Shown piece after piece: positions 13,371 to 27,426 of a stretch of 64,000 bases of DNA. Within the stretch, counting starts at the first letter, position 1, and each line of letters opens with the position of its first letter. The notes beneath the pieces are model-generated. The model worked only from the letters and a program-made list of their open reading frames with translations. It searched no databases and was not told the DNA's origin. The DNA is from Candidatus Sulfotelmatobacter sp. (GTDB lineage: Bacteria > Vulcanimicrobiota > Vulcanimicrobiia > Vulcanimicrobiales > Vulcanimicrobiaceae). Location of the stretch: the NCBI GenBank assembly GCA_035504415.1, contig DATJRY010000003.1, forward strand, positions 1 through 64,000. The letters are read 5' to 3'. A program made the position numbers and the translations under genes.

Positions 13371-14645
13371 ATGCAGATCCTCGTCGTCGGCGGCGGGGCG
13401 CGTGAAGACGCGCTCTCGTGGCGCCTGGCCGCGTCGCCGTCGTGCGAGGCCCTCTTCCACGCCCCCGGGAACGCCGGGACGGCCGGCCGCGGGACGAATT
13501 GGCCGGACTTGGCACCGACCGATGCGCGCGGGATCGTGCGCCGCGCGCGCGAGGCCGGGATCGATCTGGTCGTGCTCGGGCCCGAGACGGCGATCGCGGC
13601 GGGGGTCGGCGACGCGTGCCGCGACGCCGGACTGAAGGTCTTCGGGCCCAACCGCAGCGGCGGCCGGCTCGAGAGCAGCAAGGTGTTCGCGAAGCGGTTC
13701 CTCGAGCGGCACAACATCCCGACGGCCCGCTTCGCCGCGGTGCACACGTTGGCGCAGGCCAAACGCGCGCTGGCGAATTGGGAGGGCGGCGCGGTCGTCA
13801 AGGCCGACGGTCTGGCGGCCGGCAAAGGCGTCGTAGTCTGCGACGACGCGGCGGCGGCGCTCACGCTGCTGACCGACTGGTACGGCCAGGCCGGCATTCC
13901 GGGCGGCGGCAACGACGTCGTGATCGAGCAGAAGCTGGTCGGGCGCGAGCTGAGCGTGTTCGCGATCGCCGACGGCCGCGCGATGGTGCCGGTCGTCGCC
14001 GCCTGCGACTACAAACGGGCCGGGGACGACGACAAGGGCCCCAACACCGGCGGAATGGGCGCGTACTCGCCGCCGGCGGGCTTCCCGCCCGACATCCTCG
14101 ACGTCGTGCGCGAGCAGATCGTCGGGCCGACGCTGCGCGGTCTGCTCGCCGAAGGCGAGGACTACCGCGGCGTGCTCTACTGCGGACTGATGCAGACGGC
14201 GGCCGGTCCGTACGTCATCGAGTTCAACGCGCGCTTCGGCGACCCCGAGACGCAGGTGCTCATGCCGCGCGTCAACGGCGACTTCGCGCGCTACCTCGCG
14301 TCGGCCGCGGACGGCGTGCTCGAGATCGACGCGGCGACCTGGTCGAGCGACGCCTGCGTCGGCGTCGTCCTCGCGACCTCGCGATACCCGTACGAGAATA
14401 CGGCCGTCAGCAACTTGCCGGCAGATCTGGCGCTGCCGGACGAGGTCGTCGGCTTCTGGGGCCCCTCGACGCGCGAGGGCGCCACCGTCAGCTCGCCCGG
14501 CGGCCGCGTGCTCACCGTCGCCGCGCGCGGCAGCGGCGTCGACGAAGCGCGACGACGTGCGTACGACGCCATCGCCGGCCTGCGCGAACGCTTTCCCCCT
14601 GGCACGCCGCTGGCGTATCGCTCGGACATCGCGCGCTTAGGCTAG
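13371..14645 (+). CDS. purD: Phosphoribosylamine-glycine ligase (GAR synthetase)
   Basis: 424 aa, full-length PurD. It joins phosphoribosylamine and glycine with ATP. Features are the N-terminal MQILVVGGGAREDALSWRLA, the ATP-grasp loop VVKADGLAAGKGVVVC near residue 142, GPNTGGMGAYSP near 224 and EFNARFGDPETQVLMPR near 284. In the N-terminal motif the usual GREHA is GAREDA, a mild change. The gene stands alone between a divergent secreted-protein gene and a convergent radical SAM gene. Its stop overlaps the radical SAM stop region by 9 bases. Confidence 0.96.
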   Translation: MQILVVGGGAREDALSWRLAASPSCEALFHAPGNAGTAGRGTNWPDLAPTDARGIVRRAREAGIDLVVLGPETAIAAGVGDACRDAGLKVFGPNRSGGRLESSKVFAKRFLERHNIPTARFAAVHTLAQAKRALANWEGGAVVKADGLAAGKGVVVCDDAAAALTLLTDWYGQAGIPGGGNDVVIEQKLVGRELSVFAIADGRAMVPVVAACDYKRAGDDDKGPNTGGMGAYSPPAGFPPDILDVVREQIVGPTLRGLLAEGEDYRGVLYCGLMQTAAGPYVIEFNARFGDPETQVLMPRVNGDFARYLASAADGVLEIDAATWSSDACVGVVLATSRYPYENTAVSNLPADLALPDEVVGFWGPSTREGATVSSPGGRVLTVAARGSGVDEARRRAYDAIAGLRERFPPGTPLAYRSDIARLG

Positions 14646-24684: not shown

Positions 24685-25722
24685 GTGCTTCTGCGCAGGC
24701 TCGACGTGCGTGATGCGTACGCCCGGGCGGGCGTCGACATCGATGCGGGCAACCTGGCGGTACAACGGTACCGCGAGGTGACGTCCGGCTGGAGTCATCC
24801 CGACCAGCTTGGGTCGCTCGGCGGATTCAACGGGCTGTTCCGGCTGCCAGGCGACGCCAAGCGCGCGTTGGTCGGATCGACCGACGGCGTCGGCACGAAG
24901 CTCTTGATCGCCGCGTCGTTGCGGCGCTACGACACGGTCGGCGCCGATTTGGTCAACCACTGCGTCAACGACATCCTGGTCACGGGCGCCGATCCGCTGT
25001 TCTTCCTCGATTACCTGGCCGTCGGCAAGCTCGATCCCGACTTGGCCGCCCTCGTCGTCGCGGGCGTTCACCGCGCGTGCCGCGAGAACGGTTGTGCGTT
25101 GCTCGGCGGCGAGACGGCCGAGATGCCCGGCGTCTACCGGCCGGAGCACTTCGATCTGGCCGGCACGATCGTCGGTATCGTCGAGCTGGACGCGATCCCC
25201 GATCCCAACCGGGTGGGCGAGGGCGACGCGATCCTCGGCTTGCCCGCCGTCGGGCTGCACACCAACGGCTACAGCTTGGCGCGCTCGCTGATCGGCGAAG
25301 ACGAATACGGCCAGCCGCTCGGGTCGACGACGTACGGCGACGCGCTGCTCGCGCCGCACCCCTCGTACCTGCACGCGGTGCGCGCGATTCGCGCCGTCGC
25401 CGACGTCAAGGCGATGGCGCACGTCACCGGCGGCGGACTGATCGACAACGTGCCGCGCACGCTGCCCGAGCACGTGAAGGCAGTCTTCGAGCAGACGCGA
25501 TGGGACGTGCCGCCGATCATGGCCGAGCTGGTGCGTCGCGGCGATCTGGGCAGCGAGGAGCGCTATCGCACGCTGAACATGGGTGTGGGCTATACGCTCA
25601 TCGTGCCGTTCACCGACGTGGACGCGGCGCTGGCGGCCGTACCGGGGACGCGCGTCGTCGGCTTCGTGCAGCCGCGCCGCGACGACGAGCCGCGCGTCGT
25701 CGTGCGCCCGGCGCGCAGCTGA
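24685..25722 (+). CDS. purM: Phosphoribosylformylglycinamidine cyclo-ligase (AIR synthetase)
   Basis: 345 aa from the GTG at 24685; GTG at 24706 is an equally good start that gives the usual short N-terminus before YARAGVDIDAGN. It converts FGAM to AIR with ATP. Motifs are VGSTDGVGTKLLIA near residue 63, ALLGGETAEMPGVY near 139, GLHTNGYSLAR near 190 and AHVTGGGLIDNVPRTLP near 246. It is the first gene of an operon with the GNAT-PurN fusion (16 bases downstream) and a DsbA-like gene. It is divergent from pepA. Confidence 0.95.
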   Translation: MLLRRLDVRDAYARAGVDIDAGNLAVQRYREVTSGWSHPDQLGSLGGFNGLFRLPGDAKRALVGSTDGVGTKLLIAASLRRYDTVGADLVNHCVNDILVTGADPLFFLDYLAVGKLDPDLAALVVAGVHRACRENGCALLGGETAEMPGVYRPEHFDLAGTIVGIVELDAIPDPNRVGEGDAILGLPAVGLHTNGYSLARSLIGEDEYGQPLGSTTYGDALLAPHPSYLHAVRAIRAVADVKAMAHVTGGGLIDNVPRTLPEHVKAVFEQTRWDVPPIMAELVRRGDLGSEERYRTLNMGVGYTLIVPFTDVDAALAAVPGTRVVGFVQPRRDDEPRVVVRPARS

Positions 25723-25738: not shown

Positions 25739-26884
25739 ATGCCGGTTACGCTGCTCGCGTCCCTCGACGACGACCGCTTCGGTGCCGACGTGCTGGCGCA
25801 GGTGCACGCACGCGCGCAGCGTGCCGGCTTCACGCTGCGGCTCGAGGACGGTCCCGACGAGCGGCTCGCGGCCTGGATCGACGCGGAGTTCCCCGGCACC
25901 TGGTGGTCGACCGAGGCGGCAGGCTCGAGCACGTTCATCGCCGAGCGCGGCGAGGAGATCCTCGGCTTCGTCGCGTTCGCCGGGGAGATGGACGCGCACT
26001 GTCGCTGGCTGCGCGCCTGGCGGGGGCGCCGCGAGCTCGGCATGGTCGGGCCGGTCGGGATAAGCGCCAGCGAGCGCGGCAGCGGTGCCGGCGCGCTGCT
26101 GATCACCGCGGCGCTCGCCGAGCTGCGCGCGCGCGGGTACGAACAGGCGCTCTTCCCCGCCGCCGAGGGCGAACGATTCGTCACCGCCGTCACCCGCTTG
26201 ACCGACGCGCGCATCGTCGACTCGTTCGCGCGCGGCGACTTCCGCCACCGGTATCGCGCGACGATTCTCGCCTCGGGCGCCGGGACCAACGCGCGCAACG
26301 TGCTGCAGCGCGTCGCGGCCGGCGGCTTGCCGCTCGACGTCGACGCGGTGATCTCGGCCCAGCCCGGCGCCGGGTCGCTCGACGCGGCGCGCGAGCACGG
26401 CGTGCCGCCGATCGTCGTCGCGTGGGACCGTGCGGCGGAGTCGCGCGCCGCCTACGACGCGCGGCTGGCCGACACCGTCGCGGCGACCGAACCCGACGTC
26501 GTGCTCCTACTGGGCTGGATGCACTTGCTGGCGCCCGCGTTCCTCGCGCGTTTCCCCGATACCATCAACGTTCATCCCGCGTTCCTGCCGCTCGATCCGC
26601 GGGCCGACGCGCTGGTCGCGCCGGACGGCTCGACGATCCCGGCGCTGCGCGGCGCGCATGCGCTGCGTGACGCGCTCGCGCAAGGCGTGCGCTGGGTCGG
26701 AGCGACGTCTCACCGCGTCACCGAGCATACGGATCGCGGCGAGGTGCTGGTCCGCATCCCGGTCGCGGTCGGTGAGACGACCAGCGAACCGGCGCTGCGC
26801 GATAAAGTGCGCCCGGCCGAGTTCGTCGCGGTCGAGAGCGGAATTCGCCGCTGGGCCGGCCAGCGGGAAGGAGATGCCGCATGA
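25739..26884 (+). CDS. purN: GNAT acetyltransferase-like domain fused to PurN (GAR formyltransferase)
   Basis: 381 aa, ATG at 25739. Residues ~1-170 form a GNAT-like domain: FIAERGEEILGFVAFAGEMD, then VGISASERGSGAGALLITAA as the acetyl-CoA loop. Residues ~178-375 are PurN-like: RATILASGAGTNARNVL, AREHGVPP, LLLGWMHLLAPAFLARFPD, INVHPAFLP (Asn/His of the active site, NVHP at 26567-26578) and TDRGEVLV, where Asp matches the catalytic Asp of PurN. The usual phosphate-binding SGNGSN is SGAGTN. It probably formylates GAR with 10-formyl-THF, since the operon otherwise lacks that step. A role for the GNAT part is unknown. The TGA overlaps the next ATG (ATGA). Confidence 0.85.
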   Translation: MPVTLLASLDDDRFGADVLAQVHARAQRAGFTLRLEDGPDERLAAWIDAEFPGTWWSTEAAGSSTFIAERGEEILGFVAFAGEMDAHCRWLRAWRGRRELGMVGPVGISASERGSGAGALLITAALAELRARGYEQALFPAAEGERFVTAVTRLTDARIVDSFARGDFRHRYRATILASGAGTNARNVLQRVAAGGLPLDVDAVISAQPGAGSLDAAREHGVPPIVVAWDRAAESRAAYDARLADTVAATEPDVVLLLGWMHLLAPAFLARFPDTINVHPAFLPLDPRADALVAPDGSTIPALRGAHALRDALAQGVRWVGATSHRVTEHTDRGEVLVRIPVAVGETTSEPALRDKVRPAEFVAVESGIRRWAGQREGDAA

Positions 26885-27426
26885 GCGACGACCAGGCTCA
26901 TCTCGCCGTCCCGGTCGGTCCCGACGATCACGCGCGCGGTCCCGCCGACGCGCCGGTGACGCTGGTCGAGTACGGCGACTTCGAGTGTCCCTACTGCGGG
27001 CGCGCCGAATCGACCGTCCAGGCGCTCGCGCGGCGGTACCCGACCCAGCTGCGGATCGTCTTTCGGAGCTTTCCGCTGCTCCAGCACCGGCACGCCGAGA
27101 AAGCCGCCGAGGCCGCCGAGTTCGCGGCCGACCACGGCAAGTTCTGGGAGCTGCACGATCTGCTCTACCAGCACCAGGACGCGCTCGACGAGCCGCACCT
27201 GCTCGGCTACGCGCGCGAGCTCGGGCTGGACGCGGACGCGCTGGCGACCGCGCTGCGCGAAGGAACGTACGCGCCGGTCATCGCCGAGGTGAAAGAAGGC
27301 GGCGAAGAGAGCGGGATTCCCGGCACGCCGGCGTTCTTCCTCAACGGCCTGCTGTTCGAGGACGATCCCACCGAAGCCAATCTCGCCGGCGCGATCGACT
27401 GGCTGCTCGAGCACGGCAGCGCGTAG
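26881..27426 (+). CDS. Cytoplasmic DsbA/FrnE-like thioredoxin-fold protein
   Basis: 181 aa. A thioredoxin-fold active site CPYC lies in VEYGDFECPYCGRAEST near residue 37, and the cis-Pro loop is GIPGTPAFFLNG. Between them is a helical insertion (DHGKFWELHDLLYQHQDAL), as in DsbA/NhaA-associated thioredoxins. No signal peptide is present, so it probably works in the cytoplasm, perhaps as a thiol oxidoreductase or disulfide isomerase. It is translationally coupled to the GNAT-PurN gene. Whether it protects redox-sensitive purine enzymes (PurF carries an Fe-S cluster) is speculation. Confidence 0.85.
   Translation: MSDDQAHLAVPVGPDDHARGPADAPVTLVEYGDFECPYCGRAESTVQALARRYPTQLRIVFRSFPLLQHRHAEKAAEAAEFAADHGKFWELHDLLYQHQDALDEPHLLGYARELGLDADALATALREGTYAPVIAEVKEGGEESGIPGTPAFFLNGLLFEDDPTEANLAGAIDWLLEHGSA

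Follow-up and report, generated by a model that had tools for sequence, protein, structure and literature searches.

A GNAT acetyltransferase-like domain fused to a PurN-type formyltransferase domain in one family of Vulcanimicrobiota

The 64,000-nucleotide stretch of Candidatus Sulfotelmatobacter sp. DNA analysed here (contig DATJRY010000003.1; the window) encodes a genuine two-domain protein of 381 aa, in which a GNAT domain is followed by a PurN-type formyltransferase domain. The fusion is found across the GTDB family Vulcanimicrobiaceae, a poorly known group of soil bacteria, and combines known kinds of domains in a new architecture. It is moderately probable that the protein is a GAR formyltransferase of the ordinary kind, carrying a docked GNAT module that was inherited and that is probably catalytic in most relatives and at most weakly so in the species of the window.

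The fusion gene occupies positions 25739-26884 of the forward strand, on which all the features described below are located. It starts with an ATG that has GGAG just 5' of it, is open throughout and ends with TGA (26882-26884). The GNAT domain comprises residues 1-163 approximately (25739-26227), a short junction corresponds to residues 164-172 (26228-26254), and the PurN-type domain extends over residues 173-377 (26255-26869). The Pfam matches, Acetyltransf_1 and then Formyl_trans_N within the same ORF, bear out the original prediction of an acetyltransferase-like domain ahead of a PurN domain in a single chain of about 381 aa, and the domain border that it placed near nt 26255 (residue 173) is correct. 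Located 16 nt upstream of the fusion is purM (24685-25722; AIRS and AIRS_C matches), the true start of which may be a few codons downstream of 24685. On the other side, the ATG of a DsbA-like thioredoxin gene (26881-27426) overlaps the stop codon of the fusion (ATGA, 26881), suggesting that these two genes are translationally coupled. The purD gene (13371-14633) lies ~11 kb upstream of the fusion, and the distance is similar in the genome G005. In four fusions (L015, L018, L024 and L028), no ATG, GTG or TTG was present at the conserved N-terminus.

Most of the sequences are metagenome-assembled, and a stop or frameshift missed at the domain border during sequencing or assembly might in principle join two genes into one. 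The border was checked for such an error, as had been advised, and none was found. In 85 of the 99 genomes of the family, as read from the match table for these genomes, one reading frame runs across the junction and is not interrupted by a stop; G005, which is a complete gap-free chromosome (a single contig of 3,508,363 bp), is among them. The recurrence of this open frame in 85 genomes from many genera, its presence in a complete chromosome, and dN/dS values well below 1 on either side of the junction make the chance of an artefact negligible. Flags of 'stops inside' attached to some fusion matches were rejected as a sign of interruption: these are terminal stop codons, and the profile matches over the same places contain none. 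Nor was there any close relative with two separate genes and a stop at the junction; in the one genome of the family with an unfused purN, G009, the whole GNAT part has been lost.

The other genomes of the family include three with fragments at contig ends, G009 with purM and purN without a GNAT, and ten without a convincing match. Loss of the fusion from these ten genomes was considered and rejected: purM was sought in nine of them (all except G088) and no convincing match was obtained either, the only trace being a weak match in G089 (2.5e-5), so that the locus appears to be missing from those nine assemblies. The survey of related genomes that had been proposed thus places the fusion across the family, with purN lacking a GNAT in the sister families, and the fusion is restricted to this one family within the phylum searched (Vulcanimicrobiota). 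Most records of the relatives bear the title Candidatus Eremiobacterota or Vulcanimicrobiota. Three public records titled Rhodospirillales or Proteobacteria (L105, L138 and L158) also carry the fusion locus. The title of L105 looks wrong, as this record corresponds to G024, a genome of the window's GTDB family, and L138 and L158 are probably misnamed too.

The C-terminal part matches Formyl_trans_N (PF00551) over residues 174-361 (E 8.5e-27; 94.5 bits against a cut-off of 26.1), a match shared by 64/64 homologues, and its best Foldseek hits are all PurN (E 8.8e-19). The SGAGTN sequence (S179-N184, 26273-26290), which we take to be the GAR-phosphate-binding motif as established for PurN, is almost completely conserved: S179, G180 and G182 are invariant in 64/64 homologues and N184 is found in 63/64. 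The catalytic residues N277 and H279 of the NVHP motif (26567-26578) and the catalytic Asp332 (26732-26734), equivalent to D144 of E. coli, are invariant in all 64 fused homologues; their retention had been read from the window's protein at the outset. Alignment with PurN of known structure revealed an insert of about 15 residues, LDPRADALVAPDGST (residues 285-299, 26591-26635), in the loop after HPxxLP. This insert is absent from E. coli-type PurN and is common to the unfused PurN of the phylum (L034-L053). Its Asp296, located in the PurN substrate loop, is invariant in the fusions. The NCBIfam equivalog model TIGR00639 matched in two stretches split by this insert and, at 114.2 bits, did not reach its cut-off of 150.1, while still being the best of all formyltransferase models. 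The domain is thus PurN-like by fold, residues and context and is not formally assigned to the TIGR00639 equivalog. Assignment to PurU was also considered and rejected: no ACT match was found, TIGR00655 gave 64.7 bits against a cut-off of 286, and the scores favour PurN (114 versus 65 bits).

A search for the alternative enzyme PurT in the window's genome gave a best score of 185 bits against a cut-off of 502, and this match is a PurK-like ATP-grasp gene. The other two formyltransferase genes of this genome are fmt, which adjoins def, and a truncated one. A short formyltransferase gene (L003 1225-1908, G000:C10:290971) matches only the C-terminal half of the Pfam model. With no PurT, and with fmt and a truncated gene as the remaining formyltransferase hits, the fusion is, judging by gene content, the only candidate GAR formyltransferase of this genome, which is 95.7% complete. 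Genes purD and purH are also present, the latter scoring slightly below its cut-off (506 versus 528 bits). According to the proposed mechanism, the PurN domain would catalyse the third step of purine synthesis, in which GAR is formylated with 10-formyl-THF, and would be the only enzyme of the cell to do so.

The N-terminal part was identified as a GNAT domain by both profile and fold, so the doubt whether residues 1-170 would match a GNAT profile at all is settled: Acetyltransf_1 (PF00583) matches residues 46-136 above its cut-off (E 1.6e-6; 28.8 versus 20.7 bits). The AlphaFold2 model of this domain (pLDDT 94.8) has GNAT acetyltransferases as its top Foldseek hits (E 2e-7 to 5e-7) and includes an additional beta-alpha unit at its N-terminus (residues 3-28). 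The acetyl-CoA pyrophosphate loop RGSGAG (R113-G118, 26075-26092) keeps the R-x-x-G-x-G pattern intact. Among the 64 fusions, R113 is present in 62, G116 in 36 and G118 in 63; L154 no longer has the loop, L150 has a degenerate form of it, and in L120 an in-frame insert breaks it up. Short in-frame insertions in the GNAT part were found in the N-terminal region of L099 (PFDRLRMTS), in the acetyl-CoA loop of L120 (PLRQAQGD) and in the N-terminal region of L031 (FDFACPERSELRERSRRAQ), and they seem to resemble translated interspersed repeats. L099 is the same genome region as L016.

The window's protein carries Val151 (26189-26191) at a position occupied by Tyr in 60/64 fusions and in all 14 stand-alone homologues, and the other seven members of the genus that were compared differ from it there. 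Position 151 aligns with Tyr297 of the glucosamine N-acetyltransferase of Clostridium acetobutylicum, a residue mutated in PDB entry 5kgh, and we assume from general knowledge of GNATs that the conserved Tyr is the general acid. Such a Tyr is not universal among GNATs, and in some of them the general acid is replaceable; Val151 is therefore no proof of an inactive domain. The domain is thus a member of the GNATs by fold, and its catalysis in this species appears doubtful. In the 40 closest pairs of fusions, which do not include the window's species, dN/dS was 0.06-0.36 for the GNAT part and 0.06-0.29 for the PurN part. Values so near those of the PurN part indicate that purifying selection acts on the GNAT part in those lineages and that the domain is kept there for some function.

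The origin of the fusion can be traced by comparison with two sister families (f2 and f3), in which purM is directly followed by purN without a GNAT, and a separate GNAT gene with roughly 25-38% identity to the fused GNAT is located elsewhere in the genome. The neighbours of the stand-alone gene in the flanks that were read, named by eye from translations, are unrelated to purines: aroA and an oligopeptide-binding protein gene in one sister family and an MFS transporter gene and nadA in another. A second, stand-alone copy of the GNAT was sought in the window's genome and in G005, and none was found. All fused GNATs group together in the GNAT tree (a clade with SH-aLRT 98) and are separate from the stand-alone GNATs of the sister families. 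On the PurN tree, two events are needed, a single gain of the fusion and its later loss in G009; the branch uniting the whole fused clade has a support of only 82/83, and G009 is nested in the window's genus with strong support. Given the two trees, the gene order in the sister families and the absence of a second GNAT copy, it is likely that a GNAT gene moved between purM and purN and was then fused, once, at the base of the family. In G009 (L030 57-2163, PMOG01000154.1), which belongs to the same genus as the window, purM is directly followed by purN, with no GNAT. This state is an apparent in-frame deletion of the GNAT domain, making the module dispensable at least in this genome (one MAG contig).

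The stand-alone homologues share the conserved residues of the fused GNAT, which suggests that the domain was inherited and is not specific to purines; it would represent an acyl-CoA-binding module docked on PurN and not an enzyme of the purine pathway. Because the stand-alone copies adjoin non-purine genes in the flanks that were read, the substrate that it acted on ancestrally was probably something other than a purine intermediate. One idea of the original prediction, acetylation of a purine intermediate by the GNAT, is therefore not supported: the same GNAT is a separate gene in the sister families, and the window's copy has Val151, which makes any acetylation by the window's protein less likely. 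The GNAT may sense acetyl-CoA or modify partner proteins, as the same prediction also suggested. The broader possibility that it acetylates either a purine intermediate or lysines of PurN or PurM would agree with its placement in the purM-purN operon and its fusion to PurN. This possibility is very improbable, because the stand-alone homologues, whose conserved residues are the same, occur away from purM-purN, beside unrelated genes (again in the flanks read), and Val151 is present in the window's protein.

The whole-chain AlphaFold2 model has a mean pLDDT of 95.5 and a pTM of 0.92. Such a pTM for two domains of similar size, together with a near-constant linker length (segment 158-172 has 13-16 residues in 64/64 homologues), suggests that the domains are docked in a fixed orientation and are not merely tethered. 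Simple tethering of two enzymes active on unrelated substrates, where the fusion couples only their expression, stability or location, would account for the conservation of R113, G118 and Tyr in most of the family, for the purifying selection acting on the GNAT part and for the existence of a free GNAT in the sister families. This explanation is rather unlikely, since the predicted arrangement and the linker point to a docked domain, the window's copy lacks the Tyr, L150 and L154 have kept degenerate loops, and the loop of L120 carries an insertion.

A docked arrangement, as modelled, would also suit a regulatory role, in which the GNAT binds acetyl-CoA (or CoA) and allosterically tunes GAR formylation, linking purines to carbon status. 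The window's species keeps the acetyl-CoA loop despite the loss of Tyr, and PurU, which is among the fold hits, provides a precedent for a formyltransferase that bears an additional domain at its N-terminus; the N-terminal ACT domain of PurU is thought to regulate it allosterically. The middle Gly of the loop is, however, present in only 36/64 fusions, the loop is lost in L154 and the whole domain is lost in G009, and a sensory role of this kind is unlikely. Quite unlikely, too, is the specific form of this idea, that a repurposed acetyltransferase serves as a built-in acetyl-CoA sensor, docked on the enzyme and setting the rate of GAR formylation, thus coupling purines to the acetyl-CoA supply. 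According to the preferred reading, that of a formyltransferase with an inherited module, the GNAT of most family members can probably still acetylate its ancestral, probably non-purine substrate, while in the window's species Val151 would leave at most weak catalysis, and the GNAT might serve the formyltransferase mainly as a structural element or by binding acetyl-CoA.

Comparison with known systems shows which features are shared. With PurN (PF00551, TIGR00639), the fusion has in common the fold, the catalytic Asn-His-Asp, the SGxGTN motif and the purM-purN gene order, and it differs by the N-terminal GNAT, the phylum-wide insert of ~15 residues after HPxxLP and the score below the TIGR00639 cut-off. 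The stand-alone GNATs of the sister families (e.g. L057 and L061) share with the fused domain the N-M-L-V-D-L strand, W-x2-E-x3-G, FGPxGV and the R-x-x-x-x-G loop, but they are encoded by separate genes away from purM-purN, and all keep the Tyr, in place of which the window's copy has Val. PurU, a 10-formyl-THF deformylase (ACT and Formyl_trans_N), likewise has an extra domain before the formyltransferase domain, although this is ACT and not GNAT. Among solved GNATs, the glucosamine N-acetyltransferase of C. acetobutylicum (5kf1/5kgh) and the mycothiol synthase MshD are the nearest by sequence profile, and the former is also the nearest by fold. Both are distant (16-18% identity, TM no higher than 0.68) and lack a formyltransferase, and Asp287 of the former aligns with Pro in the window's protein. 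Fusion of a GNAT to another domain is also known for class I beta bacterial lysine acetyltransferases (AAPatA and others), in which an N-terminal effector domain is followed by a C-terminal GNAT (PMC6456759). In the protein described here, the GNAT is N-terminal and its partner is a biosynthetic enzyme, so it falls outside this class.

No description of a GNAT-PurN fusion was found in the open-access literature, the part of the literature that was searched, which agrees with the initial impression that no standard architecture of this kind is known, and, within the phylum, one family alone carries the fusion. Phyla beyond Vulcanimicrobiota were surveyed with only two PurN-derived patterns, and the claim of uniqueness applies within the phylum. 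The fusion is family-wide, of single origin and located in a core pathway. It thus represents a clean case of an unrelated enzyme domain joining a core enzyme, in which several states coexist: pre-fusion in the sister families, fused and under selection, decayed, in copies with degraded acetyl-CoA loops or without the catalytic-position Tyr, and discarded, in one lineage. If the GNAT does sense acetyl-CoA, the fusion would provide these bacteria with a direct link from carbon status to purine synthesis.
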